Origin: Prosopocoilus inquinatus
Taxonomy: Eukaryota > Arthropoda > Insecta > Coleoptera > Lucanidae
Direction of reading: 5' to 3'
Assembly (NCBI GenBank): GCA_036172665.1
Contig: CM069874.1
Coordinates: 48,714,707-48,778,706, forward strand
DNA: 64,000 nt
The translations under genes were made by a program, and so were the position numbers. Below are positions 3,112-64,000 of this stretch, piece by piece (the first letter of the stretch is position 1; every line of letters begins with the position of its first letter). Under the pieces are notes generated by a model. The model saw only the letters and a program-made list of their open reading frames with translations. It was not told the origin of the DNA and ran no database searches.

Positions 3112-4363
3112 CGTGGGATGCTGGAAAAGTTTCTGGAAACGGTATGAAAAAACGCATATGAAATTTGGTAAACGGTATCATTGTTTTTCGAAGTATTCGC
3201 CTTTGACGTCAATACACTTTTGCATACGCCCGAACCACTTTCTAAAGCACGTTTTCCACTCTAAAGATGGTACCTTAGAAACCAGTGTCCGGAATGTTTC
3301 AACCGTTGCTTCAGCCGACGAAAATCGCTCACCACGCATTTTATTTTTGATATTTGGGAATAAAAAGAAATCATTAGGTGATAAATCATGTTAATATGGA
3401 CAATGAGTCATTAATTCAACATTTTTGTTGGACAAAAAATCAACTGTTTGACGGGCTGAGTGAGAGCTGGCGTTGTCATGATGGAGAATAATTCGCCAAT
3501 TTCGATTGTTTCTTCTTATTTGATCGATGACTTCCGGCAAACAAATTGTAGTATACCAATCAGCATTCACGGTTTTTCTATCCTCTAAAGCCACGGTTGC
3601 TACATGTCCAGTTAAACCAAAGAAACAAGCAATCATTTGCTTCGTAGCACTGCGTGAACTGACAACTTTTGTTGGTTTTAGTTCATTTTGAAATACCCAA
3701 ACGGTAGATTGTTGTTTACTTTCTGGCTCGTACGAATAGATCCAAGTTTCGTCACCAGTAACGATGTTATAAACTGAATTTGAACGACCTCCATTGAATT
3801 TCTTAGGCATTTCTTTGCACCATTTGACACGACCCTGCTTTTGCGTTTCTGTTAAATTGTGTGGGATCCAACGACTGCAAAGCTTTCGTACGTTCAAGTG
3901 ATCATGCAAAATCTGGTGCATTGCTTTCATGTCAATGCGTAAGGATGCTTGAATTTCACGGTATGTCACATGTCGACCTCGCTCAAGCATTTCATGCACA
4001 GCATCTAGTGGCAACAACAGATGTTGATGGACGACCTTCACGAAATTCGTCACTGAGAGAGGTACGTCCACGCTGGAATTCGGCAAACCAATTATAATCA
4101 CTGCTTTTTGATGGTGCCGATCGAGGCATTTTTTCGGCGTTAGACCACATTTGAAATCGTAAAAAATCATGGCACGAAAATTTTCACGCGAGATTTCCAT
4201 GTTTACACAAAGTTACTTTTTCTCTAATGTTGTACAAACAAAACTAGTTCACTTGGATGGGAACTGTCAATAGAATTGTAGGCGAAATTTTCAGATGTGA
4301 CAGTTGATAAACGTTAACAATTCTAGACCTACTAGATTCCAGAAAATTTTCCAGCAGCCCACG
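3112..4363 (-). mobile_element. mariner transposon, degenerate
   Basis: The element is 1252 bp, close to the usual mariner length of about 1.3 kb. Its roughly 28-bp terminal inverted repeats start CGTGGGATGCTGGAAAAG at 3112, with the inverted copy ending at 4363 (two mismatches). TA lies on both sides (3110-3111 and 4364-4365). One transposase gene runs on the minus strand and is broken (see that entry). Confidence 0.92.
3178..4200 (-). pseudogene. mariner transposase, broken (DD34D family)
   Basis: A transposase reading frame on the minus strand starts MEISRENFRA at 4200, a start typical of insect mariners. The helix-turn-helix part is garbled between about residues 25 and 60: family-like residues (NWFAEFQRGR) are found in another frame there, so two compensating frameshifts are likely. 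The catalytic core then reads well: TGDETW carries the first Asp and LHHDNASSH the second. A TAA stop at 3391-3393 cuts the protein just before the third Asp. The frame continues after it as HDLSPNDFFLFP and ends at a natural stop at 3178. The gene is dead as it stands. Confidence 0.88.
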
Positions 4364-6851: not shown

Positions 6852-7197
6852 TGTTACGTTTCTAGGGTTTTAATTTATTTATTTAAACGAATAAAACACT
6901 CGATACAAACTTAACCGTAATTTAATAAAGCTTAAAAAAACTAATTTATTTGTAACAATTTATTTACACACTAAAATCTAACTTCGACGTTCGCTGTTCG
7001 AATTCGACTGACTGGTGAGTCAACCCGGGGCGATTTTATATCATTCACCGCCGTCTGGAACTCTCTATGCGGGAAGATTCCAGTCTGTTCGATGTGACCC
7101 CGGTGTAGGCCCCGGTGGCGTGATGGCCGATGACGCACAACAGCGAACCGACCTCCTGACGCCCTCAGCGTGACGCAGCACTGAGCGGCTCGCCACA
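6852..7197 (-). repeat. 3' LTR of the macrodomain gypsy element
   Basis: 346 bp, TG...CA ends on the plus strand as printed. Nearly identical to 13213-13558 (differences include CCGTAATT context A/T and CACCGCC/CGCCGCC). Confidence 0.95.
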
Positions 7198-9021
7198 CTG
7201 CCCCCTTCTTAAAAACGTTTCGTCTCGAAATGTTCCTGGTGATACTCTTGAAGGAGGATGTCGGAATCTACAAGCTGGCCCATTCTTGCAATTTCCCGTC
7301 TGGAAGAAGTAGCAGTCTACGGTTTTGCTGTTGCTGACTGTTGCCTGTGGGTGATGGCTGCAGACTAGGACTTCAATTCCCGTTCTGTGGAAGATGACTT
7401 CCAGCATGCTTCGTATTACTCTCCAGTCTAGTCCGTCCAATCCGCAGCCCAATTTGGGGATGGCCAACTTCATCTGATGGTTCTCTATTAGCTGTCTCCT
7501 CAGGCTATATAGGGCTCTCCACATACTTTGATAGTCAGGTTTACCGCTTGATGTCTTCTTAGTGACTAAATAATGCACGTGGCGCCTCCGATCTGCCGTC
7601 GAATCAATGATCTGCAAGCTCTTGCCTACCATGGGATGCTGTCTTCGTAGCTCCTCGATTTGGCCAAATTTCTTCTTAAACACCTGAGCGATTCCTTTGG
7701 ACATTTTCAGGTCTTCTGCTACGCAGTGGGCCAGACTGTACTCCAGTGGCACTTTAAAGAGATCTTGTTGCTTCTCCGTGGTCACTCCAAACCGTGCCTT
7801 GCTTCCTTCGGTGTGATGAGACATGAAGGTTTCGAAGTTCACTTCGGAAACTTGCGCCCTTTGTACTGTCCCTTCATCTGCTTCTCCATGGTAAGGGGCT
7901 ATCCGGTTGAAGTGGATTACTTTGGGTTTGCCATGAGGGACCTTCCTGATGCGGTAAACGACGTCGTTGATCCGTTTCATCACTTTGTAAGGACCTTCCC
8001 AAGAGGTCTGTAATTTTGGGGAGAGGCCTCGACGTCTTTGGGGGTTATAAAGCCAGACCAGTGCTCCAGGTTGGTATCCCCCGTGTTGAGCGTTGATGTC
8101 ATAGTGCTCCTTCATCCGATCGCTGGCCGTCTGTATATTGTGACGCACTTGGGTGTGGATATCATCCATTTTCCTGCGTAATTTGCTCACGTAATCTTCG
8201 TCGGCAGAGACTTCGCCAGGCTTCATACCAAACTTCAGGTCGCAGGGCAGTCTCGGCTCTCGCCCGAATACCACTTTCGCGGGAGTCTCCCCTGTTGTCT
8301 CATGAACAGATGAGCGGTATGCCATTAGAAACAGGGGGATGTACGTGTCCCAGTCCCTCTGATGATTGGAAACGACCTTGGACAAATGTCGGTTGATGGT
8401 TCTATTGAACCTTTCCACCATTCCGTCCGACTGTGGGTGGAGTGCAGTTGTTCTAGTTTTTCGTACGCCGAGCAGAGTACACACGTTCTTGAACAAGGCC
8501 GATTCAAAGTTCCTTCCTTGGTCTGAATGCAGTTCCATAGGTGCACCATACCGACTGATCCATTCCCTGACAAGGACTTCCGCAATAGTGACTGCCTCTT
8601 GGTTAGGTAGGGCGTAAGCTTCAACCCACTTACTAAAGTAGTCCATTACCACGACGATGTACTTGTTTCCACCATTCGTTTCTGGAAACGGGCCGGCTAC
8701 ATCGATGGCAACTCTCTCAAAAGGACTTCCAACGTTGTACTGTCTCATGGGGGCCTTACCCCGCCTGTGGGGGCCGTTACTGGCTGCGCAGACTGCACAC
8801 TTTCTGCACCAATCCTTCACGTCTTCCTTGCAGTTCACCCAGTAAAATCTTTCGCGCACCTTCTCCATAGTCTTCTTAACTCCCAGGTGCCCTCCCGAAG
8901 TTCCATCGTGAAGTTCCCTCAGAACTTCTGGCACCCTATTCTTGGGGATTAGTAACTGTGTCTTCTGTTCCATGCCTTCTGGATTCTCCATGCTTCGTCT
9001 CAGAAGACCACGATCCAACAC
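7165..9021 (-). CDS. pol: gypsy pol, C-terminal part: integrase, TARG1-like macrodomain, CCCH zinc finger
   Basis: This 618-residue frame carries, in order: the HHCC zinc-binding region (about 38-78); the integrase core with D107 (AIDVAG), D167 (HSDQG) and E203 (MVERF), a DD35E triad; a GPY/F-type C-terminal integrase domain (about 318-377); a macrodomain (about 420-556); and a CCCH finger with C570, C578, C584 and H588 (C-x7-C-x5-C-x3-H). The macrodomain resembles human TARG1/OARD1: SLAHCVAEDLKMSKGIA, YLVTKK and GCGLDGLDW line up with the TARG1 equivalents, and the catalytic Lys and Asp of TARG1 (K84, D125) correspond to K488 and D529. A deacylation role on ADP-ribosylated proteins or nucleic acid is therefore plausible but inferred. 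The frame is in phase with the upstream pol part; a single TGA at 9040-9042 separates them. It ends inside the 3' LTR. Confidence 0.93.
   Translation of the reverse strand: MLDRGLLRRSMENPEGMEQKTQLLIPKNRVPEVLRELHDGTSGGHLGVKKTMEKVRERFYWVNCKEDVKDWCRKCAVCAASNGPHRRGKAPMRQYNVGSPFERVAIDVAGPFPETNGGNKYIVVVMDYFSKWVEAYALPNQEAVTIAEVLVREWISRYGAPMELHSDQGRNFESALFKNVCTLLGVRKTRTTALHPQSDGMVERFNRTINRHLSKVVSNHQRDWDTYIPLFLMAYRSSVHETTGETPAKVVFGREPRLPCDLKFGMKPGEVSADEDYVSKLRRKMDDIHTQVRHNIQTASDRMKEHYDINAQHGGYQPGALVWLYNPQRRRGLSPKLQTSWEGPYKVMKRINDVVYRIRKVPHGKPKVIHFNRIAPYHGEADEGTVQRAQVSEVNFETFMSHHTEGSKARFGVTTEKQQDLFKVPLEYSLAHCVAEDLKMSKGIAQVFKKKFGQIEELRRQHPMVGKSLQIIDSTADRRRHVHYLVTKKTSSGKPDYQSMWRALYSLRRQLIENHQMKLAIPKLGCGLDGLDWRVIRSMLEVIFHRTGIEVLVCSHHPQATVSNSKTVDCYFFQTGNCKNGPACRFRHPPSRVSPGTFRDETFLRRGQCGEPLSAASR
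7198..7212 (-). other. Polypurine tract of the gypsy element
   Basis: Directly inside the 3' LTR the minus strand reads AAGAAGGGGGCAG, the expected primer for plus-strand synthesis. The related copy keeps AAGAAGAGGGCAG at 62368. Confidence 0.75.
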
Positions 9022-9039
9022 TATGGAGTCCCACTGCGC

Positions 9040-9042
9040 TCA
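9040..9042 (-). other. In-frame TGA between RNase H and integrase
   Basis: On the minus strand the codons read TCA TAC TGA GCG CAG TGG, with open pol sequence on both sides in one frame. It is either a nonsense mutation in this copy or a read-through stop; the second copy in this window lacks the region. Confidence 0.85.
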
Positions 9043-11523
9043 GTATGATTTTACGGACGGTGCACATTGTGCTACCTCTTCCCAGGTAGGCCTCGCGTCC
9101 CTGCTTTTCCACTCTAGCACTAATTTCAAATCCGGGTCGTTCTCCTGGTCTCTTCGCAGTTCTTCGGCTTGCCATTTGTCGTCAACAATGGCTGTCCTCG
9201 CAGTCGTGGCTACTTTCTCGTCCAAACGACTACAGTGCTTACAGTCTTCGGCACAGGGTCTTCTCGACAAAGCATCGGCATTTCGATGGCTAGTTCCTGC
9301 CCGATGCTGAATTTCAAAATCGTACTCCTGAAGTCGTTCGATCCATCGTGCAACTTGCCCTTCTGGGTTCTTGAAACGGAGAAGCCATTTTAGAGCGGCG
9401 TGGTCGGTCCTCAGCAGGAAGCGTCTACCATACAAGTACTTGTAGAAGTGTTCTATCGTTTTTACGACGGCTAGCAATTCCCTTCTTGTGACGCAATAGT
9501 TTCGTTCCGGTTTTGATAGGACTTTACTGAAGTAGCCGATCACCTTCTCTTGCCCCTCTTGTATCTGGGAGAGTACGCCACCAATCCCAACGTTGCTAGC
9601 ATCTGTGTCCACGACGAACTTGCCTTCCGGGAGAGGATAACTCAGAATAGGAGCACTAACCAAGTACTGCTTTAGTTGTTCAAAGCCAATTTGACACTGT
9701 TGGTCCCATTCATATGGACGACCTTCTTCAGTGAGTTTTGTTAACGGCTTAGCAATGTCTGCAAATCCAGGAACGTAGCGCCGATAGTAAGTGCACAGGC
9801 CAAGGAAACTCCTTATTTGGTGTTTATTTCTGGGAGTTGGCCAGTCTTTCACCACCTGAATCTTCACAGGGTCCACGGCGATTCCATTTCCATTAACAAT
9901 GTGCCCCAGATAATTCACTTCCTTCTGGAATAGGTGACACTTCTTGAGGCTAAGCTTTAGGCCCGCTCCGCGAAGCCGCTGGAACACTCCTTCCAGGTTC
10001 CTTAGGTCGTCGTCGAACGTCTTTCCCACGACAATTATGTCATCAAGGTACACCATGCACGTTGTCCAGGACAGACCTTTCAAAACCGTCTCCATTAACC
10101 TCTCGAATGTCGCTGGGGCATTACATAATCCGAAAGGCATCACTGTGAACTGCCACAGACCCATACCAATGGAAAACGCCGTCTTTTCTCGATCTTCGGG
10201 CGCCAGCTCCACTTGCCAATATCCACTCTTTAAGTCCAAAGTTGAGAAGATCTTTGAGCCGGCTAGGGTGTCCAGGGTATCATCAATCCGTGGCAGGGGA
10301 TAGCTGTCCTTCTTGGTGACATTGTTGAGTAACCGGTAGTCTACACAGAATCTGGTGGACCCATCCTTCTTCTTCACAAGCACTACTGGTGACGCCCACG
10401 GGCTGCTTGATGGTTCTATCACATTATCCTTTTCCATCTCGCGAATAATGCGTTCCGCTTCCTCACGCTTTGCCAACGGTAATCGCCTTGGAGCTTGACG
10501 GATAGGTCTTTCTTCTCCAGTCTCTATTTTGTGTTTCACGACATCAGTTCTTCCCTTGGATCCATCTTCTACCTCGAATACATCTTGATAACGGCCGATC
10601 AGATTCTTTGCTCTTGTCTTCTGGTCTGGAGTCAATTCCTGGGCTGTTGACATAACCATTTCCCATAATTTCTTTGGGACTTTCGCTTCTGGCACGTTTG
10701 TTTCAAGTTGCCGGGAGATGGAGGACACCATGGTGCAGCTTCCCAAGATTGTTCCTTTCTTGATATTGACAGAGAAACAATTGACGTTCATCATGCGGAC
10801 AGGTACTTCCTTCTTCGCCGTCAACAACATTTTCCCAACGAGGACTCCTCTTCCAATCCTTTGATCATCAGTATTAGGTTCAACCATAATGACTTGACCA
10901 TCTTGAAAAACACCGTCCAGTTTTGCGTCGACGATAACCTCAGTCCTGCTGGGTAATACAACGTCTTCAGCGAGGACTACTCGAGCGGCCACGTCCCCTC
11001 GTTGATGTAGAACCAACTCCTCATTATTGACCGCCATCACGCTACGCTTTAAGTCCAATTGGAACCCGTGGGCACACATGACGTCCATGCCCAAAATTGC
11101 CTCGTCCTCTATATCTGCCACCAGTGCACGGTGTTTTATTGGAGTTGAACCAATGGTGATGATAACCTCTACTTCACCGTGGACAGTTGCTGATGTTCCA
11201 GTTGCAGTTTTCAGTTTCCACTTGGTCGGCTCGGTGCGTCCAGATGACTTAATGACGTCGGGTCTTAGGATGGTCTTCGTCGCACCCGTATCCAACAACA
11301 TGGTGTGAGGAATGTCATCAATGGTAACATCCACGAAGACACTGCTGGTTAACTGCCGTAGGAATATTACTTGGTTGGCTTTCGTCTTTGGGGGCCTTTG
11401 AATACGGGTCGACGTTTGCCCCTCTGCACCGACCCGGCTTAGTTTAACTGTGGCTTCCTTGGATCCTGTCTGGGCTTTGGACATCGCCTGCGAACATGTC
11501 CTTCCTCCTGGCAATTCCAACAA
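9040..11523 (-). CDS. pol: gypsy pol, N-terminal part: protease, reverse transcriptase, RNase H
   Basis: The frame is 827 residues. A retropepsin comes first, with the catalytic motif LLDTGATKTIL at about residue 76. The RT follows, with YRLLNN, SGYWQVEL, the MPFGLCNAPATF motif and the catalytic YLDD box (VYLDDIIVVG). RNase H has VVDTDASNVGIGG and the TDHAALKWL segment. Together these make the replication enzymes of a Ty3/gypsy element. The frame overlaps the end of gag by 85 nt in the -1 frame, consistent with expression by -1 frameshifting; I do not see a textbook slippery heptamer. It stops at an in-frame TGA (9040-9042), after which the same frame continues into integrase with no loss of sequence. 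Confidence 0.95.
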   Translation of the reverse strand: MLELPGGRTCSQAMSKAQTGSKEATVKLSRVGAEGQTSTRIQRPPKTKANQVIFLRQLTSSVFVDVTIDDIPHTMLLDTGATKTILRPDVIKSSGRTEPTKWKLKTATGTSATVHGEVEVIITIGSTPIKHRALVADIEDEAILGMDVMCAHGFQLDLKRSVMAVNNEELVLHQRGDVAARVVLAEDVVLPSRTEVIVDAKLDGVFQDGQVIMVEPNTDDQRIGRGVLVGKMLLTAKKEVPVRMMNVNCFSVNIKKGTILGSCTMVSSISRQLETNVPEAKVPKKLWEMVMSTAQELTPDQKTRAKNLIGRYQDVFEVEDGSKGRTDVVKHKIETGEERPIRQAPRRLPLAKREEAERIIREMEKDNVIEPSSSPWASPVVLVKKKDGSTRFCVDYRLLNNVTKKDSYPLPRIDDTLDTLAGSKIFSTLDLKSGYWQVELAPEDREKTAFSIGMGLWQFTVMPFGLCNAPATFERLMETVLKGLSWTTCMVYLDDIIVVGKTFDDDLRNLEGVFQRLRGAGLKLSLKKCHLFQKEVNYLGHIVNGNGIAVDPVKIQVVKDWPTPRNKHQIRSFLGLCTYYRRYVPGFADIAKPLTKLTEEGRPYEWDQQCQIGFEQLKQYLVSAPILSYPLPEGKFVVDTDASNVGIGGVLSQIQEGQEKVIGYFSKVLSKPERNYCVTRRELLAVVKTIEHFYKYLYGRRFLLRTDHAALKWLLRFKNPEGQVARWIERLQEYDFEIQHRAGTSHRNADALSRRPCAEDCKHCSRLDEKVATTARTAIVDDKWQAEELRRDQENDPDLKLVLEWKSRDARPTWEEVAQCAPSVKSY

Positions 11524-12572
11524 ACCAGCGGCCTCTTCTGCTTGAAGACCTGTTCCACAATGCGGCGAACATCCTCGGCGGTGGCATACTCCCTGGCTCG
11601 CTCCTTTATAGTAGATCCCACCTTGGCGTTAGCGGATTCTTCCTCTTCTTCCTCTTGGAAGTCCATAGCCGCTCGCACCTTGACATGCCCTCTTGAGACT
11701 CGTCTCGCCGCTTCAAATTCCAAGGCATAAGCTAATGCGTTCTTGGACGTCTTCGGATGGGTCATTCTCAATGCCTGCTGGTTGTCTGGGTCACGGATTC
11801 CATCTATGAAGGTCTGCACCGTCAAACATTTGAGGAATTCAACAGGAGCTGTGGGATATGTCAACTGGGCCAGACGCGCTACGTCCGCTTCGAATTCCTG
11901 AAGACTTTCTCCGAATTTCTGACAGCGAATCCTCAACTGCGCATGGTATACCTCGGTCAGATGGGCCTGTCCGTAACGCATTTCCATCCTATTCACCAGC
12001 TTGTCGAAGTCTTCTTGTTCCTCTGGCGGCATCGTCTGTAGCACATCGATAGCGTCTCCTCTCAAGGCCACAATTAACGAAGTGGCTTTTTCGCTGGCCG
12101 TCCATCTGTTTGCCTTTGCTGCTGCTTCGAACTGTTTGAAGTAGTTGGGCCAAGAAGACTTTCCATCGAACGTCGGTGGTTTTATTTTTAATTTCGAATT
12201 TTCTGCTGGTCCTTCCACAATTCGGGTTTCATTATTTTCTAGTGTTTCTACTGGTGGCTGATCCCCGAACACTCGCAACCCCGCCATGATTTGCTCCAGA
12301 TTTTTGATTTTGTTATCCTGCTGAAATATTATTTCCTCCACATTTTCTTGCAGGTTCTTTGTTTCTTCTGATATTTTTACCACTAATTTATCTTCGAGTC
12401 CTTTTGTTTGCTCTAGAAATTTCTCGTCAAAATTTCTGGAGTGCTCTCGAAATTTCTCGTCTAAGTCTCTAGATTGTTCCAACAATTTATTCTGTAATTT
12501 GTCCAAATTTCCAGATTGTTCTAGAAGCTTCTCCTCTAAATTTCTGGATTGTTCCATCAATTTAGTTTGCAA
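11439..12572 (-). CDS. gag: gypsy gag, capsid and zinc-knuckle part
   Basis: This frame holds the main Gag region. It starts with coiled-coil repeats of the type LEQSRNLEEKL, continues through a retrotransposon Gag/capsid domain (IKPPTFDGKSSWPNYFKQFE, then the stretch around SLQEFEADVARLAQLTYP), and ends with one CCHC knuckle, CWNCQEEGHVRRRCPKP, that should bind RNA. Gag forms the particle in which reverse transcription takes place. Its true N-terminus is in the next frame upstream (12562-13113). The two are separated by a 4-bp duplication (AGATAGAT near 12624-12631), so this copy of gag is frameshifted. Confidence 0.9.
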   Translation of the reverse strand: MQTKLMEQSRNLEEKLLEQSGNLDKLQNKLLEQSRDLDEKFREHSRNFDEKFLEQTKGLEDKLVVKISEETKNLQENVEEIIFQQDNKIKNLEQIMAGLRVFGDQPPVETLENNETRIVEGPAENSKLKIKPPTFDGKSSWPNYFKQFEAAAKANRWTASEKATSLIVALRGDAIDVLQTMPPEEQEDFDKLVNRMEMRYGQAHLTEVYHAQLRIRCQKFGESLQEFEADVARLAQLTYPTAPVEFLKCLTVQTFIDGIRDPDNQQALRMTHPKTSKNALAYALEFEAARRVSRGHVKVRAAMDFQEEEEEESANAKVGSTIKERAREYATAEDVRRIVEQVFKQKRPLVCWNCQEEGHVRRRCPKPRQDPRKPQLN

Positions 12573-13113
12573 CTCGTCTTTGAAGTTTACAGATTGTTCT
12601 CGAAGTTCGTCCTTGAAATTTCCAGATAGATTGTTCTAGAAGCTTCTCCTCTAAATTTCTGGATTGTTCTCGAAGTTCGTCCTTGAAATTTCCAGATTGT
12701 TCTAGAAGCTTTTCCTCTAAATTTCTGGATTGTTCTCGAAGTTTCTCTAAATTTCCAGACTGTTCTTGAAACTTCTCGTCCAAATTTCTGGATTGTTCTC
12801 GAAGTTCGTCCTTGAAATTTCCAGATTGTTCTCGAAGTTCGTCCTTGAAATTTTCAGATTGTTCTAGAAACTTCTCGTCCAAATTTCTGGATTGTTCTCG
12901 AAGTTCATCTTTCAGGATTTTATTAAAATCGGCGGGACCACACGAAATTTCGAAAAGGAAGGTCTCTGGATCTTCGCCAGCTGTCAACAAATCGGATCGG
13001 AGATGCTGTTGAAGTGCGCCTTTCAAACCACCGGTTTCTAACTCTCGTTCTTCCAATTCGGTTTTTAATTCGGCCACTTTTAAGTCTTTCAACAACACTT
13101 TTCTCGTAGCCAT
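12562..13113 (-). CDS. gag: gypsy gag, N-terminal part with SAP-like domain and hendecad coiled coil
   Basis: The frame starts MATRKVLLKDLKVAELK at 13113, about 100 bp inside the 5' LTR. Residues about 8-40 look like a SAP motif (a short DNA-binding helix pair). From about residue 70 the protein is built of 11-residue repeats, such as LREQSRNLDEK and LLEQSGNFKDE, which predicts a long coiled coil and makes the DNA a 33-bp tandem repeat. The 4-bp duplication near 12624 shifts translation into a short nonsense tail, ending at 12562. This is the natural start of Gag, broken by that mutation. Confidence 0.85.
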   Translation of the reverse strand: MATRKVLLKDLKVAELKTELEERELETGGLKGALQQHLRSDLLTAGEDPETFLFEISCGPADFNKILKDELREQSRNLDEKFLEQSENFKDELREQSGNFKDELREQSRNLDEKFQEQSGNLEKLREQSRNLEEKLLEQSGNFKDELREQSRNLEEKLLEQSIWKFQGRTSRTICKLQRRVAN

Positions 13114-13193
13114 TGTTTTTTTTTCCGATACTGTACTTATTTAATAATCTGATTAAATTTAATTTACTTTAAATTGTTTATTTATTTGCACAA

Positions 13194-13211
13194 ACCCCAC
13201 ACCTGACACCA
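13194..13211 (-). other. Primer binding site of the gypsy element
   Basis: One base inside the 5' LTR the minus strand reads TGGTGTCAGGTGTGGGG. It begins with TGG, complementary to a tRNA CCA end, and resembles leucine-tRNA-type primer sites, with mismatches. Confidence 0.6.
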
Positions 13212-13212
13212 C

Positions 13213-13558
13213 TGTTACGTTTCTAGGGTTTTAATTTATTTATTTAAACGAATAAAACACTCGATACAAACTTATCCGTAATTTAATAAAGCTTAAAAAA
13301 ACTAATTTATTTGTAACAATTTATTTACACACTAAAATCTAACTTCGACGTTCGCTGTTCGAATTCGACTGACTGGTGAGTCAACCCGGGGCGATTTTAT
13401 ATCATTCGCCGCCGTCTGGAACTCTCTATGCGGGAAGATTCCAGTCTGTTCGATGTGACCCCGGTGTAGGCCCCGGTGGCGTGATGGCCGATGACGCACA
13501 ACAGCGAACCGACCTCCTGACGCCCTCAGCGTGACGCAGCACTGAGCGGCTCGCCACA
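13213..13558 (-). repeat. 5' LTR of the macrodomain gypsy element
   Basis: 346 bp. The minus-strand start is TGTGGCGAGCCGCTC and the end is CGTAACA. It carries the core promoter annotated separately. Confidence 0.95.
13364..13401 (-). promoter_or_regulatory. LTR core promoter: TATA box and TCAGT initiator
   Basis: On the minus strand TATAAAA (13401-13395) lies about 29 nt upstream of a TCAGTC initiator (around 13372), the usual arthropod spacing. The same pair is kept in the solo LTR at 38174-38522. Confidence 0.7.
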
Positions 13559-15269: not shown

Positions 15270-16436
15270 CTACACTTCACACCGGGTAACTTCTATCGGC
15301 AATACGCATATTTTTGAACATGAACGTTTCACAATACCGTTTGCTGTTCGAATAGAAGCTACTCGCGCAACACTATCTGGACCCGGATGTAGTTCGATGA
15401 TTCGCCCTAGATGCCATTGAAGAGGAGGCAAATTGTCCTGTTTGATGAGTACCATGTCTCCTTCTTGCAAACGTAGTTGGCCTTCCTTCCACTTGACTCG
15501 TTGTTGTAGTTCTGAAATGTATTCTTTAGCCCAACGTTTCCAGAAATGTTATTGCAGTTTTTGCGAGCGTTGGTACGTTGACAGAAGATTCTCCTTAACG
15601 TCCATGACATCAGGATCTGGTAGAGATGTGAGTCGTCGACCAATTAAGAAATGGGCCGGGGTGAGGACATCGAAATCATTGGGATCGGTGGAGAGAGGAG
15701 TTAAAGGACGGGAGTTTAGGGTGGCCTCGATTTGCGTAAGCGTTGTATAAAATTGCTCGTATGTTAAAAGAGCATTAGACATTACTCGCTTCATATGAAA
15801 TTTAGATGATTTAATACCCGCCTCCCATAGACCTCCAAAATGAGGACTATGAGCCGGTATAAAATTCCAATTAACTCCTTCATTAGCAAAAGCATCCTTT
15901 AGAGTCTCATTCTGTTGTGAAACAAAATTCCCCAATTCCCTTAATTCTGACTGTGCGCCTACAAAGTTTTTGCCATTATCAGAGTAAATCGCATATGGTT
16001 TACCACGTCTCGACACAAATCTCCGAAAAACTGCAATAAATGTTTCAGTGGTTAACTCGGTAACTAGCTCCAAATGGACCGCTTTAGTCGCGAAACATAC
16101 AAAGAGGCTAACGTAACACTTTACCGTTTTACTTCCGCGTCCTTTCTTATCTCTGATTAGAAAAGGTCCGGCATAATCAACTCCAACGTTGTAAAATGGA
16201 TGTACGGGTTGCAATCGCGACTTAGGCAATACACCCATAATAGGAGCTGTTTGTATAGGTTTGGCTCGATAACATTTTATGCAATTATGGACTATCTTTT
16301 TGCTGAGATTTCGGCCACCGATAAGCCAATATTTCTCACGCATTGATGACAACAGCAATTGAGGCCCAACATGCAATAATCTCTCATGTTCGTACGAACA
16401 GAGCAATTTTGTCAAGGGATGGACCATCTGAATCAA
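15270..16436 (-). pseudogene. BEL/Pao integrase, frameshifted
   Basis: The main frame (15549-16436) starts with the zinc-binding part (HERLLHVG, CIKCYRAKP), then the integrase core: VDYAGPF with the first Asp, YSDNGKNF with the second, and GGLWEAGIKS with the Glu. A separate frame at 15270-15470 (MVLIKQDNLPPLQW, GRIIELHPGPD) is the DUF5641-type C-terminal domain usual in Pao integrases. One frameshift near 15470-15549 separates the two. The protein would insert the cDNA into the genome; in this copy it is not continuous. Confidence 0.88.
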
Positions 16437-17336
16437 GAAATGGGCTTAAACTTATCGTGTTACTCTTTGATTCAATGAGTTTGCGTTTCTGAAGAAAACG
16501 TAATTCATTGGGAAAACTTTCGCCTTGTGATATTTTAGTTAAGCGTTTTAACGATTCGTTTAATTCGCTGACTGTAAGAACTCCAGTTTTACGATTGTCG
16601 GAGTTTCGACAATTAAAAATAAAACGTAGACAATATGCCATGCAACGACTCATACGTGGAAATTTTGAGAAGCGTTCAAACGGAAATAAATCGTTAATTT
16701 GACTTACAAGCAACGACCTTAGGTTTGTTTTTAATTCAGGAAGTCTACCTTCGAAAGTTGAAGACTCGTTAGGCCACGTTTATTCATGGTTGGAAAGCCA
16801 ATTTGGTCCATGCCACCAAATGTCTGAATTTTGGAGTAAGCTTGGATTCACACCACGTGACAAGTCTGCTGGATTATCCTTGGTTGGCACGTGGCGCCAA
16901 GTGTGATGTTCCTTGAAACATTGAATTTGCGAGACACGATTTGCCACAAAAACTTGTAGAAGATTTGGACAAGTGGGTATCCAGCTTAACACAATTGTTG
17001 AGTCGGACCAAAGGTTGATTGCATCAAAATTTAATCTTACTGACTTTATGACCTTCTTTACCAATTCTACAAGTACAACTGCCGAATTCTGAAGGTAATA
17101 GGTCATCCCAGGAAAGTTTGTACTGCCACAAACGCTGAAGGAATATTTTTTGCAGTGACGGTGCAGGGGCTTACTAATCGCAACGGATCGAAAATTTGCG
17201 CAATCTGCGATAAAATGTAGCGCTTCGTGATTGATTTAGTACTAGGTAGTTGTTCGATATTAAAGAACAGAATATCTGCTTTACTTGACCAGTAGAGTCC
17301 CAGTGTTTTCATATTATCGGTTTCCCCAAATTGCAT
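16384..17336 (-). pseudogene. BEL/Pao RNase H region, fragmented
   Basis: Three overlapping frames (17103-17336, 16780-17106, 16384-16713) make one decayed domain region. KTLGLYWSSKADILFF and SQIAQIFDPLRLVSP are the Pao RT-to-RNase H connection; WSDSTIVLSWI and HVPTKDNPADLSRG are the RNase H-like motifs that BEL/Pao elements carry. At least two frameshifts interrupt it. Confidence 0.8.
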
Positions 17337-17357
17337 TGATGTTGCAAGACAATTGGT

Positions 17358-18378
17358 TCACTGAATACCTTCTAAAACATCCTCGCTATTAGACACCCAT
17401 TTCCTCAAACTAAAACAGGCACCGGCTAATACTGAAGACACCTGTTTACATAAACTGATTGCATCCTCCACACTCTCAGCGCCTGACAACATATCGTCAA
17501 CATAAAAATCATGACCGATGACTCTTGCTGCTACTGGGTTGCTGTTTATGTGATCAATTGAGAGTTGTTTTAAACATCGTATTGCAAGAAATGGAGCAGA
17601 GGCAGTTCCGTACGTTACCGTGTTCAACCTGTGTGTACTGATCTCCTTGGATTGATCGGGTCTCCAGAGTATTTGTTGCAAATGCCTTTGACTGGGATCA
17701 ACAAGTATCTGCCGGTACATTTTCTCATTATCTGCACAGATCACAATATTGTGCTGCCTGAATCTTAATAGGATCGATAACAGGTCGTCTTGAATTGTGG
17801 GTCCAACTAATTGCAAATCATTCAGAGAATAACCTGAGTCTGAACGAGCCGAAGCATCGAAAACTACTCGCAATTTTGTGGTTAAGCTTTGCTCCTTCAA
17901 AATTCCGTGATGAGGAAGAAAATATGTTTCCTGACTTAACTCGTATGACTCTTCAACCCTTGACATGTGTCCCAGTTCTTCGTATTCAGACATAAAGTCG
18001 GAGTACATTTGATGAAGTTTTGGATTTTTCTCTAATTTGCCTTCCAATGAATTAAATCTGTTTAGCGCCATCTGATGTGAGTTACCTAACAAAGATAGAT
18101 CTTTCTTTAGAGGAATTGTGACAACGAATCTACCCGTTTGATCTCGAGTAGTTGTATTACTGCAGTTTTCTTCACATAATCTTTCCTCTTCTGAGAGAAT
18201 CGGTAAGGAAGATACCGGCTCCTCCAATTCCCAAAACCTAGCCAATTGTTTTTGAACGTCCGCATTAGTATTTAGGCTACACAAAGTTGTCGTGGAAGAT
18301 ACATTTGAACAAATCGGACCAGATATCACCCATCCCAAGCGAGTTTCTTGTACAATAGGTTGATTTTTACCGAGATGA
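17358..18378 (-). pseudogene. BEL/Pao reverse transcriptase, fragment
   Basis: The frame reads through the Pao RT: LRVVFDASARS, SLNDLQLVGP, YRQILVDPSQRHLQ, TYGTASAPFLAIRCL and the catalytic GHDFYVDDMLSG box. The first methionine in the frame (18338) is not the true start, since the same frame is open upstream as VQETRLGW. The domain itself looks intact; the frame breaks on both sides. Confidence 0.9.
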
Positions 18379-18626
18379 ATTTGTCCCGCAACAAGTAAGT
18401 TATAGAATAAGCCAGCACCGATGAGAATGTCAACGGGGCCTGGTTGATTGAAAGTGGGATCCGCTAATTTTAAATGTGATGGAATTTTAACATAAGATAA
18501 GTCAACTTTCTTACTTGGAATAAAGTCGCTAATTTTTGGTAAGATTAAACAAGAAATAGAAGTTTCGAAATTGTTTTGAATTGATTTAATGGCAACACTG
18601 CACCTGGCCTTGAGCCTTGAAATGCT

Positions 18627-19154
18627 TTATCCAATTCCCACAATTGATATGTTTATTTCTGACTTCTTTAATGATAATTTGTCACACAAGTCCTGAGTAA
18701 TCAAATTAGATTGTGAGCCACTATCAAGAAGTGCTCTACACGTGTGAGGTCGACCTAAAGAATCCCGTACCTGAATTAAAGCAGTTGATAACAAAATATC
18801 ATACGATTGCTGATTGCTATGATTTGTTAATACAACGTTCGGTTGTGAATTGTTAGTACTGGTTCCTTCGGTTTCATCTGTATATTGATTATTTGTCGTA
18901 ATTTCAATTTTATTGGGTACCTTTGCCTGTGCGTCTTTATGTAACAAGGAATGGTGTTTCGAAGAACATTTATGACAATGACCTGACTTGCAGTCCCTTA
19001 CAAAGTGATTGTTTCGAAGACAATTAATACAAAGTTTGCGAGTTTTAACTTGAACTAGCCTATCGTTTACCGACAAATTTAAGAATTTTGTACAGTTACC
19101 AATATAATGATTCTCGCTACAGAACGTGCAACAAGAAAGAGTGCCTGTGGCCAC
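18627..19154 (-). pseudogene. BEL/Pao zinc fingers and aspartic protease, fragment
   Basis: Two cysteine-histidine knuckles (CTFCSENHYIGNC, and CINCLRNNHFVRDC followed by CHKCSSKHHSLLH) are followed by a retropepsin-like LLDSGSQSNLI. This is the usual middle of a BEL polyprotein. The frame continues upstream of its first Met to about 19255, where a frameshift separates it from gag. Confidence 0.85.
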
Positions 19155-19243
19155 TTTAAATACCTTCGGCGAATTGTATTTGTCACCAGTATTCTTAAAT
19201 TTTAAGGTTTGCTTTAGTCCTTTATGATTAAATTCCAGTGTTT

Positions 19244-20185
19244 CTAATAAATTGCTTTGTTTTTTATAAATGATTTAAATTCTTCCATTGAAGGAAGCTC
19301 ACTTTCTTTTTTACATTTCTCCCATTCACGTTCAGTTTCTTTGTCTAATTTACGACTCAAAAGAAAGATTAACAAAGTATCCCAGTGTTGTATTGGCTGT
19401 TTCAGAGAAGCTAAGGCCCGTAAATGTTTTGATATGTTATCCGTAAATGTACGAAAATCTAATGAACCTGCACTCTTTATATTCGGCAAATCAACAAGAG
19501 ATTTAATGTGATTATACACTAATAATCTAGTATTATCGTACCTTTCACGTAAAAGTTGCCAAGCTATAGGATAATTTTCGGTGGCTACCTCTAATGAATG
19601 AATCACCTGTTTCGCATTATCATAAAGTTGTGCACGTAGATAATGAAATTTAGAAATATCAGGTATCTCCGCGTTATTATGAATCAAAGATGTGAACGTA
19701 TCGCGGAACTCCAGCCAGTTTTCGTAATTTCCGTAAAATTTTGGCAATTCTATTCGAGGGAGCTTAACATCGGACCGCATAGAATGCGAAGTTAATTTGA
19801 CGGACTTCTCTGAACCAGAGATCGAATTTTTATCGTCTTGTACGTTATTTTGCGAATAAACCTTTAAAATGCGTTTACACTCTGATAATGAACTGAAATA
19901 CAAATTTTCAAAATTTTCTCTTTCTGTGACTTGTGATTCAAAGTCGTCATGTGCAATTTCAATAGCCGACTGGCATTCTTGAAATTCCTCTAAAAGAGCT
20001 ATTTGTTTTTCTAATCTACATTCTAATTCTTCAATTTCGGAACTATCAAATATATTGTTTTTATCTAATTCTTTAAATGAATTTTTTACAGGTTCTAAAT
20101 ACTTTACGAAAAGAGTTAATCTTGCCTTTAATGAACCACGTTTGCGAATTAATGTTTTAACAGATTCGGCCATGCTTTCAACCAT
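19244..20185 (-). pseudogene. BEL/Pao gag (DUF1759-type)
   Basis: The frame has 313 residues. A coiled-coil N-terminus (about 1-110) precedes the DUF1759-like Gag core: LPRIELPKFYGNYENWLEFRD without a break, then FHYLRAQL, the segment with AWQLLRERYDN and NISKHLRALASL. The start MVESMAESVKTL lies about 190 bp inside the 5' repeat. The reading frame fails near 19255 instead of running into the zinc knuckles. Confidence 0.88.
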
Positions 20186-21990: not shown

Positions 21991-22034
21991 ATATGCTGTA
22001 GTATTCTTCCGGGTAGTCCTCCGCGTTGAGTTCT

Positions 22035-22085
22035 CTAAAGAACTATTTGTCTTCTGACAACGTTTCGGCAAGGTCTCACTTGCCA
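22035..22085 (-). ncRNA. Hammerhead-like core at the Penelope 3' end, copy A
   Basis: The minus strand reads CTGAAGA, then GGCAAG/CTTGCC as stem II, then GAAACGTTGTC. The core bases of hammerheads found in Penelope-like elements are present. I could not find a matching upstream stem I strand, so activity is uncertain. Confidence 0.5.
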
Positions 22086-22088
22086 TCT

Positions 22089-24212
22089 TCAGGTCTTCGC
22101 TGCTGCTTGCCTGCTTCTGCTCCTCGTCGTTACTCGAGTCACAGTGGCTTCTGGTCGCGCTGGTGGTGGTTTAAGTACCGTGTTGCGGTCACGCGTCGTT
22201 ACGCTTGGTGGTTTTTCCGCTTGACTTCTTGTTGTTGGTTGATTGGGTCGTGCCTGTTGACTGCTTTCTCCTAATCCTGATGGTCCGGGGTTCGCTGGTT
22301 TCTGGCTTCGGGTTACTGGTCCTCGACGGTCGGTGGATTTTCGGATCACTGGCCTCCAGGTGGGTGGTAGTCGTAAGGCATCCTCTCTGGTGTTTAAGTT
22401 CATCTGATGTTTCTCGATTTCTATCGCTTCTCGGATGATGCGTTTGGTCTTGTGTTCTACGCTGGCAATTGTTCTGGTGTTGTCGAAATCTATTTTGTGT
22501 GAAGTCGCTTTTACGTGTTGTGCCAATGATGATGTTTTCTCGTCCTTCTCGACGGCCTTTCGATGTTCTTCTCTCCTGACGCTTATTTTTCTATTTGTTT
22601 GGCCTATGTAGACCTTGTCGCAATCTTGACAGGGAATTCCGTACACGCCTTGGCTTTCCAGTTGTATTTTAGTTTTGACTGTTGGCAGGATGTTTCCAAT
22701 TTTCTTGTCGGTGTTGAATGATGTCCGGATATTGTGTTTCTTGAGTATTCTGCTGATCTTCTCTGTTGTCCCTTTAACAAATGGTAGGCATGCTGTTCCT
22801 ACTATATCTTTTTCCTCTTCCTGTGTCTTGGGTTCGCGTTGGTGTTCGGCTTTCCTGATTTGTTTGTCCTGATATCCATTTTTTATTAAAGATGAGCGGA
22901 TTTTCTTCATTTCTTCTACCTTGTTTTCTGAGTCAGCCAATCTTTGGGACCGGGTGACGAGGGTCCTTACCACTGATTGCAATTGTGCTGGATGGTGATG
23001 TGATTGTGCGTTCAGGTACCGTTCCGTGTGGGTTGGTTTTCGGTATACGGAATGTCCAAGGCTTCCATCTGGTTTTTTCTTTATAAGTACATCGAGGAAT
23101 GGAAGTTCGTTGTTTTCTTCGATTTCCATCGTGAACTTGATCTTCGGATGGATTTCATTCAGGTGTTGCAGAAATCTTCGTAGTTGTTCTTCTCCATGCT
23201 TCCATATTATGAAGGTGTCGTCCATATATCTGAGCCACAGGTGTGGTTTGTGACTTGCGGTATCGATGGCCCGTACTTCGAAATCCTCCATGAATAAGTT
23301 GGCGATTACAGGAGATAATGCTGATCCCATGGGTGATCCTTCTACTTGTTTATAACGTTGGTTCTTGAAGATGAAGTGGGTGTTCTTCAAGCAGTGCTTC
23401 ACCAGGTCCATGGTGTCGTCTGGGATGTGGTGTTTTAGATGAAGGATATCCACTGCTTCGTCTATTGGTATGTTGGTGAATAGTGAGACCACGTCGAAAC
23501 TTACTAGCAGATCTCCTGGTTCTACGGTGAAGTCCTTTATACGCTCGATGAAGTGGCCTGCGTTCTTTACGTAGGATTCTGCTTCTTCGGCGTATGGCTG
23601 CAGTCGTTTGGCCAAGAATTTTGCTAGTGGTTGTAACGGTGATCCGATGGAACTGACGATTGGCCTCAGTGGTATCCCTTCCTTGTGGATTTTTGGTAAT
23701 CCGTAGAGCTTTGGGCATCTGGATGATTTTTCCCTCGGGATCAATTGTAATTGCTGCTCTTGACTGATTGAGCTGGCTTTGATTTTAGCTTTCGTTGTCT
23801 TCTCTAAGTATGTCGTTGGATCTGTGGCGATGGTGTTGTACGCTGGGTCGTTTAGTAGGACCTCCATCTTCGTTTCGTAGTCGTTACGATCCATCACAAC
23901 GGTGGCGTTTCCTTTGTCGGCTGGAAGTATGCCGATTTGTTCATTTTTCTTCAGCGTGTGTAGAGCTTGTAGTTCTTCTCGAGATAGGTTCCTCTTTGGT
24001 GGTTTTGCTCGTCTTAGGATTTGGGATACATCTTGTCGTATTGTCTCCGCTGTGTCCTCCGGTAATCCGATGATGGATGCTTCCACACTGCATATTATGT
24101 TCTCCATTGGTATGCTGGCTGGTGCTACAGCGTAGTTGAAACCCTTGGCCAGTACACTTTTGCTGGCTTCGTCGAGTGGATAGCTTGATACGTTATGAAC
24201 AACTTTCTCCAA
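22089..24212 (-). CDS. Penelope-like RT with GIY-YIG endonuclease, copy A (N-terminally truncated)
   Basis: The 707-residue frame is collinear with residues 118-824 of copy B and differs at about three residues (His/Tyr in NTHFIF, Val/Ile in FLDVLIK, Glu/Asp in TREDAL). It contains the complete RT (LPADKGNATVVMD, KLYGLPKIHK, SFDVVSLFTNIP, GSPMGSALSP, YMDD) and the GIY-YIG nuclease (GVYGIPCQDC, KVYIGQTNRK). Only the first 117 residues are lost, by the 328-bp deletion, which also puts the upstream remnant out of frame. The product would copy RNA into a nicked target site; the lost N-terminus makes function doubtful. Confidence 0.9.
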   Translation of the reverse strand: MEKVVHNVSSYPLDEASKSVLAKGFNYAVAPASIPMENIICSVEASIIGLPEDTAETIRQDVSQILRRAKPPKRNLSREELQALHTLKKNEQIGILPADKGNATVVMDRNDYETKMEVLLNDPAYNTIATDPTTYLEKTTKAKIKASSISQEQQLQLIPREKSSRCPKLYGLPKIHKEGIPLRPIVSSIGSPLQPLAKFLAKRLQPYAEEAESYVKNAGHFIERIKDFTVEPGDLLVSFDVVSLFTNIPIDEAVDILHLKHHIPDDTMDLVKHCLKNTHFIFKNQRYKQVEGSPMGSALSPVIANLFMEDFEVRAIDTASHKPHLWLRYMDDTFIIWKHGEEQLRRFLQHLNEIHPKIKFTMEIEENNELPFLDVLIKKKPDGSLGHSVYRKPTHTERYLNAQSHHHPAQLQSVVRTLVTRSQRLADSENKVEEMKKIRSSLIKNGYQDKQIRKAEHQREPKTQEEEKDIVGTACLPFVKGTTEKISRILKKHNIRTSFNTDKKIGNILPTVKTKIQLESQGVYGIPCQDCDKVYIGQTNRKISVRREEHRKAVEKDEKTSSLAQHVKATSHKIDFDNTRTIASVEHKTKRIIREAIEIEKHQMNLNTREDALRLPPTWRPVIRKSTDRRGPVTRSQKPANPGPSGLGESSQQARPNQPTTRSQAEKPPSVTTRDRNTVLKPPPARPEATVTRVTTRSRSRQAAAKT

Positions 24213-24216
24213 TACG

Positions 24217-24314
24217 AGCGTTCCAGGAAAGTCAATTTGGTTTCAATTTTTAGTTTCTAGAAACTACGGTCAAGAAGAGGTAAGCTACTGTGCAAATTGA
24301 CTTTCCTGGAACGC
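24217..24314. repeat. Centre of the Penelope palindrome
   Basis: Copies A and B meet head to head here. GCGTTCCAGGAAAGTCAATTT (without its last base) at 24217 mirrors 24294-24314, leaving a unique spacer of about 56 bp (24238-24293). Confidence 0.9.
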
Positions 24315-26771: not shown

Positions 26772-26815
26772 AGATGGCAAGTGAGACCTTGCCGAAACGT
26801 TGTCAGAAGACAAAT
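26770..26815 (+). ncRNA. Hammerhead-like core at the Penelope 3' end, copy B
   Basis: CTGAAGA, stem II GGCAAG/CTTGCC, GAAACGTTGTC. Same reservations about stem I as for copy A. Confidence 0.5.
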
Positions 26816-26889
26816 AGTTCTTTAGAAAACTCAACGCGGAGGACTACCCGAAGAATACTACAGCATTCAACACCCGCGGAAGCCTACGG

Positions 26890-38173: not shown

Positions 38174-38522
38174 TGTGGCGCGCCACCCGGCTTAGCTCAA
38201 GGCGTCAAGAAGTCGGTTCGTTATGCGTCATTGGCTGCCACGCCACCGGGGTCTACATCGAATAGACTAGACTTTTCCGGCGATGGAACAAACTCGAATC
38301 TTCCAGCGTAGAGGATTCGAGACGGCCGCAAAGGATATAAAATGGGCCAAAGTTGACTCACCAGTCAGTCGAATTCGAACAGCGATCGTCGAAGTTAGAT
38401 TTTAGTGTGAAAATAAATTGTTACAAATAAATTAGTTTTTAAGCTTTATTAAATTACGGTTAAGTTTTTATCGAGTGTTTTATTCGTTTAAATAAATAAA
38501 TTAAAACCCTAGAAACGTAACA
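38174..38522 (+). repeat. Solo LTR of the macrodomain gypsy family
   Basis: 349 bp from TGTGGCGCGCC to ACGTAACA, with a perfect GTAC duplication on both sides (38170-38173, 38523-38526). The U3 part resembles the LTR at 62041 more than the one at 6852. It has a GATATAAAATGG box and a TCAGTC initiator. It arose by recombination between the two LTRs of a former full element, inserted next to the family 2 repeat. Confidence 0.93.
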
Positions 38523-38526
38523 GTAC

Positions 38527-62040: not shown

Positions 62041-62367
62041 TGTTACGTTTCTAGGGTTTTAATTTATTTATTTAAACAAATAAAACACTCGATAAAAACT
62101 TAACCGTAATTTAATAAAGCTTAAAAACTAATTTATTTGTAACAATTTATTTACACACTAAAATCTAACTTCGACGGTCGCTAGTTAGAACTTGACTGAC
62201 TGGTGAGTCAACTCCGGGCGATTTTATATCATTTGCTGCCGTCTGGAATCCTCCACGCTGGAGAAGTCTAGTCTGTTCGATGTAGGCCCCGGTGGCGTGA
62301 CGGCCGATGACACATAACAGCGAACCGACTTCTTGACGCCTTGAGCTAAGCCGGGTGGCACGCCACA
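62041..62367 (-). repeat. 3' LTR of the second gypsy copy
   Basis: 327 bp, TGTTACG to CGCCACA on the plus strand. The U3 differs from the LTR at 6852 and is closer to the solo LTR at 38174 (both have GTGGCGCGCCACC-like or TGGCACGCC ends and AAGAAGTCGGTTCG). Confidence 0.88.
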
Positions 62368-63250
62368 CTGCCCTCTTCTTAAAAACGTTTTGTCTCGAAA
62401 TGTTCCTGGTGATAGTCTTGAAGGAGGGTGTCGGAATCTACATGCTGGCCCATTCTTGCAACTTCCCGTCTGGAAGAAGTAACAGTCTACGGTTTTGCTG
62501 TTGCTGACTGTTGCCTGTGGGTGGTGGCTGCAGACTAGGACTTCAATTCCCGTTCTGTGGAAGATGACTTCCAGCATGCTTCGAATTACTCTCCAGTCTA
62601 GTCCGTCCAATCCGCAGCCCAATTTGGGGATGGCTAACTTCATCTGATGGTTCTCTATTAGCTGTCTCCTCAGGCTGTATAGGGCTCTCCACATACTTTG
62701 ATAGTGAGGTTTACCGCTTGATGTCTTCTTAGTGACTAAGTAATGCACGTGGCGCCTCCGATCTGCCGTCGAATCAATGATCTGCAAGCTCTTGCCTACC
62801 ACGGGATGCTGTCTTCGTAGCTCCTCGATTTGGCCAAATTTCTTCCTAAACACCTGAGCGATTCCTTTGGACATTTTCAGGTCTTCTGTTACGCAGTGGG
62901 CCAGACTGTACTCCAGTGGCACTTTAAAGAGATCTTGTTGCTTCTCCGTGGTCACTCCAAACCGTGCCTTGCTTCCTTCGGCGTGATGAGACATGAAGGT
63001 TTCGAAGTTCACTTCGGAAACTTGCGCCCTTTGTACTGTCCCTTCATCTGCTTCTCCATGGTAAGGGGCTATCCGGTTGAAGTGGATTACTTTGGGTTTG
63101 CCACGGGGGACCTTCTTGATGCGGTAAACGACGTCGTTGATCCGTTTCATCACTTTGTAAGGACCTTCCCAAGAGGTCTGTAATTTTGGGGAGAGGCCTC
63201 GACGTCTTTGGGGGTTATAAAGCCAGACCAGTGCTCCAGGTTGGTATCCC
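62224..63250 (-). pseudogene. Integrase C-terminus, TARG1-like macrodomain and CCCH finger, copy 2
   Basis: From about 63250 the frame reads through the GPY/F-type integrase end, the full macrodomain (SLAHCVTEDLKMSKGIA, YLVTKK, GCGLDGLDW) and the CCCH finger (CYFFQTGSCKNGPACRFRH), then continues into the LTR up to 62224, giving a longer, different tail than in the first copy. The catalytic Lys and Asp of the macrodomain are kept and the domain has only conservative changes (Ala/Thr, Lys/Arg, Met/Val, Asp/His). A one-base loss in the C run near 63250 breaks the frame upstream, and the integrase core is deleted. Confidence 0.88.
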
Positions 63251-63280
63251 CGTGTTGAGCGTTGATGTCATAGTGCTCCT

Positions 63281-63619
63281 TCATCCGATCGCTGGCCGTC
63301 TGTATATTGTGACGCACTTGGTCGGCTCGGTGCGTCCAGATGACTTAATAACGTCGGGTCTTAGGATGATCTTCAACGCACCCGTATCCAATAACATGGT
63401 GTGAGGAATGTCATCAATGGTAACATCCACGAAGACACTGCTGGTTAACTGCCGTAGGGATATTACTTGTTTGGATTTCGTCTTTGGGGGCCTTTGAATA
63501 CGGGTCGACGTTTGCCCCTCTGCACCGACCCGGCTTAGTTTAACTGTGGCTTCCTTGGATCCTGTCTGGGCTTTGGACATCGCCTGCGAACATGTCCTTC
63601 CTCCTGGCAATTCCAACAC
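63281..63619 (-). pseudogene. gypsy protease N-terminus fused across the deletion
   Basis: Starts MLELPGGRTCSQAMS like the full copy, keeps LLDTGALKIIL (the protease Asp-Thr-Gly), then runs across the deletion point into out-of-frame integrase sequence (TIYRRPAIG) and stops. Confidence 0.88.
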
Positions 63620-64000
63620 ACCAGCGGTTTCTTCTGCTTGAAGACCTGTTCCACAATGCGGCGAACATCCTCGGCGGTGGTATATTCCCTGGGTCGCTCC
63701 TTTATAGCAGATCCCACCTTGGAGTTAGCGGATTCTTCCTCTTCTTCCTCTTGGAAGTCCGTAGCCGCTCGCACCTTGACATGCCCTCTTGAAACTCGTC
63801 TCGCCGCTTCAAATTCCAAGGCATAAGCCAATGCGTTCTTGGACGTCTTCGGATGGGTCATTCTCAATGCCTGCTGGTTGTCTGGGTCACGGATTCCATC
63901 TATGAAGGTCTGCACCGTCAAACATTTGAGGAATTCAACAGGAGCTGTAGGATATGCCAACTGGGCCAGCCGCGCTACGTCCGCTTCGAATTCCTGAAGA
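63535..64000 (-). CDS. gag: gypsy gag, C-terminal part (continues past the window)
   Basis: Capsid end (FLKCLTVQTFIDGIRDPDNQ, written as seen) and the CCHC knuckle CWNCQEEGHVRRRCPKP match the first copy with a few substitutions. The frame is open to the window edge. It overlaps the protease frame in the -1 phase as in the full element. Confidence 0.88.
   Translation of the reverse strand, partial: LQEFEADVARLAQLAYPTAPVEFLKCLTVQTFIDGIRDPDNQQALRMTHPKTSKNALAYALEFEAARRVSRGHVKVRAATDFQEEEEEESANSKVGSAIKERPREYTTAEDVRRIVEQVFKQKKPLVCWNCQEEGHVRRRCPKPRQDPRKPQLN

Follow-up and report, generated by a model that had tools for sequence, protein, structure and literature searches.

Chromoviruses carry a chromodomain at the C-terminus of their integrase. 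In fish, epsilon-like endogenous retroviruses that have a frame for a macrodomain were reportedly described by Basta et al. 2009, a paper cited in a review that reports such viruses (PMC4977317). The macrodomain protein TARG1 takes ADP-ribose off proteins and nucleic-acid ends (PMC7050489) and clears PARP3-modified DNA ends, an activity that is lost with the D125A substitution (PMC5725667). Here we describe a Ty3/gypsy long terminal repeat (LTR) retrotransposon in which the integrase is followed by a macrodomain of the TARG1/OARD1 type and then by a CCCH zinc finger. The element lies in a 64,000-nucleotide stretch of the beetle Prosopocoilus inquinatus (contig CM069874.1), which we refer to as the window; all coordinates are positions within this stretch, and the element reads on the minus strand. 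An initial annotation had proposed both domains downstream of the integrase, and they are borne out by a match to OARD1 and by the Pfam zf-CCCH model, respectively.

Compared with the sequences in the PDB, the macrodomain region matches human OARD1/TARG1 (2eee) with E=5.4e-30 and 107.8 bits, and the best macrodomain other than OARD1, that of DarG (5m3i), with E=9.3e-6 and 28.6 bits. Identity to the solved TARG1 chains is 37–38%, and the structure prediction, overlaid on TARG1 as the initial annotation had advised, gives a fold 1.0 Å from 4j5r. The profile search that it had also advised has a divided outcome: the finger passes Pfam zf-CCCH (PF00642; 25.7 bits, cut-off 20.5), the Pfam Macro match is weak (18.1 bits, under the cut-off of 22), and it is the sequence match to OARD1 that is strong. 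The NCBIfam DarG model matches residues 440–566 with 42.9 bits, against a full-length cut-off of 250, and the same NCBIfam scan returned otherwise only transposase families. The Macro score below its cut-off would fit an artefact, either a similarity arisen by chance or an OARD1 gene of the host adjacent to the element; we rejected this and give it a negligible probability in view of the OARD1 match at E=5e-30, the single open frame shared with integrase, the recurrence of the same fusion in other sequences, and the predicted fold. Sequence, predicted fold, catalytic residues and a clade of related elements together support assignment of the domain to the TARG1/OARD1 (ALC1-like) type.

The putative catalytic residues are K488 (7558–7560) and D529 (7435–7437), and the residue numbers given initially are correct. 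Both are invariant columns in a 44-row alignment and align to the Lys and Asp of human OARD1, Lys84 and Asp125 in the numbering that we take from the cited papers; one paper gives the TARG1 dyad as Lys84 and residue 125, which is printed as Glu125 where the aligned residue is Asp (PMC7050489), and another names the inactive mutant D125A (PMC5725667). A search with residues 395–618 found 168 proteins and one with the macrodomain alone found 162, and the best 120 of each were examined. Lys is kept in 118 of the 120 listed for residues 395–618 (one Arg, one gap) and Asp likewise in 118 (two Gly), most of these rows being non-independent Aromia copies; the 11 element rows from the macrodomain-only query (P0121–P0131) have both residues in 11/11. 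In a set of 23 element domains from which redundancy above 90% identity was removed, Lys and Asp each stand at 0.96. These domains also match, in at least 90% of their number, 25 of the 30 columns that are conserved (at least 90%) in 109 other TARG1-like rows, with exceptions at columns 495, 525, 526, 528 and 536; gaps were left out, and the 109 rows include P0170, itself an element fragment.

Fusions of integrase and macrodomain in other insects, for which the initial annotation had advised a search, were found in beetle proteins. An organism name accompanies 112 of the 120 matches listed for residues 395–618, and all 112 are beetles, mostly Aromia; the genera among the matches listed are Aromia, Molorchus, Exocentrus, Gonioctena, Callosobruchus and Harmonia. 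The macrodomain-only search added, among the matches listed, Pyrocoelia, Leptinotarsa and an Aquatica fragment, together with TARG1-like proteins of flea, molluscs and rotifers. The beetle families with integrase-macrodomain elements, among the matches listed, are Cerambycidae, Chrysomelidae, Coccinellidae and Lampyridae. A pol with the macrodomain, P0262, bears the label of the fungus Erysiphe pulchra and lies on a 6.5-kb contig, and our guess is contamination. The Leptinotarsa decemlineata protein P0130, named 'ADP-ribose glycohydrolase OARD1-like', starts with the end of an integrase p58 domain and seems to be a piece of such an element that was given the name of a host gene. In Rhamnusium bicolor, another beetle, the related macrodomain protein P0134 has no Pfam match to integrase or finger and may belong to a different kind of element or be a domesticated gene. 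Scans of viral contigs gave no relative, one being without a pattern match and the other having 42 pattern matches with 0 confirmed.

Among the matches listed, the elements with the macrodomain form one lineage. A search with the reverse transcriptase (RT) piece, in which only candidates sharing most words were scored, found 7969 proteins, and a hidden Markov model of the macrodomain applied to the best 120 gives 18 with the domain, 83 without it (at least 35 residues being readable past the integrase GPY motif) and 19 cut short or unclear. All 18 macrodomain pols and the window element fall in a single 28-row clade, with a Shimodaira-Hasegawa-like approximate likelihood ratio support of 99 in a quick tree of 121 rows and support of 98/89 in a careful tree of 55 rows, comprising the 28 clade rows in full together with 27 of the 80 outside rows without the domain. 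On the careful tree, 'none' rows require 4 changes and 'macro' rows 6, as compared with means of 18.5 and 16.0 after shuffling; cut rows count as a separate state, and the well-supported branches force at least 3 and 4 changes respectively. The simplest account is one gain at or near the base of the clade followed by a few losses, although the gain may have come later given the position of the domainless P0258, which is placed unresolved at the clade base. In a tree of the macrodomain itself (114 rows, thinned from 243), 21 element rows group together (100/95), the window domain is closest to Pyrocoelia and one further row (97/88), and Rhamnusium P0134 falls near the element clade without support. 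The nearest outside neighbour of the element clade is placed with support of 7/91 at the root, and the bootstrap is not settled. Capture from an insect host, which the initial annotation had proposed to examine by a tree, is on this placement one possible origin among others.

The window contains a second copy of the element that is internally deleted and nevertheless has an open frame across both macrodomain and finger. The two copies differ in the macrodomain by 5 synonymous and 4 non-synonymous changes (binomial 0.027; dN 0.012 and dS 0.055 for non-synonymous and synonymous sites), in macrodomain plus finger by 8 and 6 (binomial 0.0043), and in the shared stretch 350–598 by 9 and 9 (binomial 0.008). 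The linker stretch 350–411 alone has no purifying signal in this copy pair (dN 0.021, dS 0.024). There is thus a modest signal of purifying selection on the macrodomain between the window copies, in a comparison of one copy pair with few changes and a site count that gives every kind of base change the same rate.

The finger has the motif C570-x7-C578-x5-C584-x3-H588, and the solved relatives closest to it by sequence are the CPSF4 fingers (E 7e-8), a likeness that suggests RNA binding. The function proposed in the initial annotation, reversal of host ADP-ribosylation with the finger binding RNA, is plausible. We favour the reading in which ADP-ribose added by the host is removed by the domain from the nucleic acid or proteins of the element, and put it at about an even chance. 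The macrodomain would be an active ADP-ribosyl hydrolase travelling with integrase; host PARP-type enzymes would tag element proteins, or the ends or bases of RNA and cDNA, with ADP-ribose, and the hydrolase would strip these tags, allowing reverse transcription and integration to finish. The finger, where present, would help to keep the macrodomain on element nucleic acid. In linear retroelement cDNA the DNA ends adjoin integrase, and from this and the substrates of TARG1 the cleaning of element nucleic acid or proteins is therefore the likeliest reading. In part of the published biochemistry, with thymidine-linked ADP-ribose in DNA as the substrate of TARG1, K84A gives no rescue. A more specific version, that an undescribed insect defence ADP-ribosylates retroelement RNA, cDNA or proteins and that the integrase-fused repair enzyme untags the ends, is tentative, and we think it rather unlikely.

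Several observations weigh against the cleaning of element nucleic acid or proteins. Among the 18 full pols, pairwise identities have a median of 0.77 in RT-RNase H, 0.74 in integrase and 0.52 in the macrodomain; this lower conservation fits a conflict with the host and equally fits weaker constraint. The other nine rows of the 28-row clade consist of six that are cut and three in which the domain is missing from the readable sequence (P0247, P0254, P0258); because of these three and the 4 'none' changes, at least 3 of them forced, a single gain has to be supplemented by losses, or by cut rows. P0254 looks like a deletion, because the usual tail of the family is still present at its end. Both the faster divergence of the macrodomain relative to RT and integrase, and its loss, decay or truncation in certain rows, would suit a captured host segment that hitchhikes and slowly decays with no present function. 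We consider such a passenger very improbable: the domain is in frame across four beetle families, with about 49–58% identity in the best 120 of 168 relatives, its active-site pattern is kept, and comparison of the two window copies gives a purifying signal.

The finger and the active site both vary among relatives, which likewise tells against the favoured reading. The finger motif (C-x7/8-C-x5-C-x3-H) is found in 119 of 131 rows from the searches with residues 395–618 and with the macrodomain alone and absent in 12, several of which are cut gene models, and it is absent in 8 of the 18 full pols, six of them in one subclade (P0245, P0249, P0253, P0259, P0260, P0262), together with P0246 and P0241, the last of which stops within the macrodomain. 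In the predicted model the finger region is of low confidence (block means of 44–64 for the predicted local distance difference test), and the finger is supported by its sequence and not confirmed by the modelled structure. The Lys position in the 18 full pols is K in 16, R in 1 and a gap in 1, and the Asp position is D in 15, N in 2 and a gap in 1; the sister pair P0248/P0252 retains the macrodomain and has lost the active-site pattern. This pair is possibly a reader-only version of the macrodomain.

A sublineage with the domain and without the active site would be expected under the main rival, a targeting module in which the macrodomain would recognise chromatin-bound ADP-ribose where there are breaks or active PARP and would anchor integrase at those places. 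The placement of the macrodomain after the p58 domain over a linker of about 35 residues would also be in keeping with targeting, as would, by analogy, the extra chromodomain of chromoviruses, a chromatin-targeting type of domain (PMC2864245). However, Lys and Asp, each in 118 of the 120 listed rows, go beyond the need of a pure reader, and within its class TARG1 is given as the sole animal protein with hydrolytic activity (PMC7050489). We regard targeting to ADP-ribosylated chromatin as unlikely. Still less probable, in our view, is a role mainly in hydrolysing O-acetyl-ADP-ribose or free ADP-ribosyl esters, which would dampen sirtuin-linked silencing or shift local NAD metabolism with no role in counter-defence. 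TARG1 does act on O-acyl-ADP-ribose esters (PMC7050489), but the fusion to integrase and the finger in many members would fit a substrate confined to one site better than a metabolite in solution.

Provided that the domain is active, the insect retrotransposons of this clade have equipped their integrase to erase ADP-ribose. ADP-ribosylation would then be indicated as one of the ways in which insects defend themselves against retroelements, and this would be open to test: the preferred substrate of the enzyme would reveal the host modification. The clade offers natural comparisons between members with the dyad, the pair with a lost active site, those without a finger, and those reading without the domain.

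The features of the window element and its relatives are collected in Table 1. Protease, RT, RNase H and integrase stand in the Ty3/gypsy order (Pfam), and integrase E203 sits just outside the Pfam rve match. The target-site duplication is the 4-bp ATAA at both flanks, and the LTRs are identical at 344 of 346 positions. The window copy is damaged, gag being split over two frames and an in-frame stop lying between RNase H and integrase; the integrase-macrodomain-finger frame (9021 down to 7165) stays open. This frame crosses the putative polypurine tract and ends ten codons inside the 3' LTR, so that no room is left for an envelope frame; none is present between pol and the 3' LTR, which rules out an errantivirus (envelope-bearing gypsy). 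A chromovirus is also ruled out, as the macrodomain occupies the integrase end in place of a chromodomain and none is found among 15 Pfam matches up to E 1. In gag, an array of 33-bp (11-residue) repeats at 12390–12930, near the SAP domain, is perhaps a coiled coil; SAP is also found in many Aromia relatives among the matches listed.

Table 1. Positions of the retrotransposon, its domains and its other copies in the window.
Feature	Position	Strand	Basis or remark
Ty3/gypsy LTR element, ~6.7 kb	6852..13558	-	LTR pair and ATAA flanks
5' LTR, 346 bp	13213..13558	-	2/346 differences from 3' LTR
gag part 1: SAP domain and 33-bp repeats	12562..13113	-	Pfam SAP 24.2 bits, cut-off 23.9
gag part 2: CCHC zinc knuckle	11439..12572	-	Open frame and Pfam
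pol part 1: protease, reverse transcriptase, RNase H	9040..11523	-	Open frame and Pfam
pol part 2: integrase, macrodomain and CCCH finger, 618 residues	7165..9021	-	Open frame and Pfam
Integrase H2C2 zinc-binding domain	8776..8949	-	Pfam
Integrase core (rve)	8443..8724	-	Pfam; D107, D167, E203 (DD35E) present
Integrase p58 C-terminal domain	7894..7995	-	Pfam
TARG1/OARD1-type macrodomain, residues 412-556	7354..7788	-	Sequence match, alignment, predicted fold
CCCH zinc finger, residues 566-590	7252..7326	-	Pfam and sequence match
Putative polypurine tract, encoded by end of pol frame	7198..7210	-	Read by eye
3' LTR, 346 bp	6852..7197	-	Last 10 pol codons overlap it
Second element copy, internally deleted, reaching window edge	62041..64000	-	3' LTR at 62041-62367
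Macrodomain of second copy, frame open	62524..62958	-	Coordinates derived from residue offset 346
Apparently solo LTR, same family	38174..38525	+	About 86-91% identical

Other repeats are present in the window. Near-identical (99.8%) inverted copies at 21993–24220 and 24640–26866, with frames of 707 and 824 residues that end in a GIY-YIG-like stretch, look Penelope-like. Frames at 15549–20185 lie between the two units, at 14875 and 20371, of a 267-bp direct repeat and resemble those of a BEL/Pao element, and frames at 3391–4200 and 55547–56635 resemble Mariner/Tc-type transposases.

With TARG1/OARD1 (C6orf130) the element's domain has in common the predicted fold, the Lys/Asp dyad and 37–38% identity, although human TARG1 is a small free-standing protein whereas the domain described here is a C-terminal part of Pol with a CCCH finger. 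The macrodomain of DarG, a bacterial DNA ADP-ribosyl glycohydrolase, is the antitoxin of a toxin pair. The best match among predicted viral structures is VP8 of Kadipiro virus (BFVD A0A8E0KJF2; 42% identity), a segmented RNA virus and not a retroelement. TARG1-like folds also occur in predicted proteins of virga-like viruses of thrips and others, and repeated capture by insect-associated RNA viruses is possible on these models. Chromoviruses likewise have an extra host-type domain in Pol, but this is a chromodomain and not of the ADP-ribosyl hydrolase type (PMC2864245). Because fish endogenous retroviruses with macrodomain frames have been described, a macrodomain in an LTR element is already known; a Ty3/gypsy integrase with a fused TARG1-type domain, recurring across beetles, did not come up among the papers listed in the literature searches, nor did any report of a macrodomain in a Ty3/gypsy element, a weak negative in that subscription papers were mostly outside the scope. 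A fish type with a separate macrodomain frame is ruled out for the window element by its one frame with a Ty3/gypsy-type integrase. The fish epsilon-like elements are likewise LTR elements with a macrodomain, but theirs is encoded by an extra open reading frame of a vertebrate retrovirus (PMC4977317), whereas that of the beetles is fused to the integrase of an envelope-less Ty3/gypsy element.
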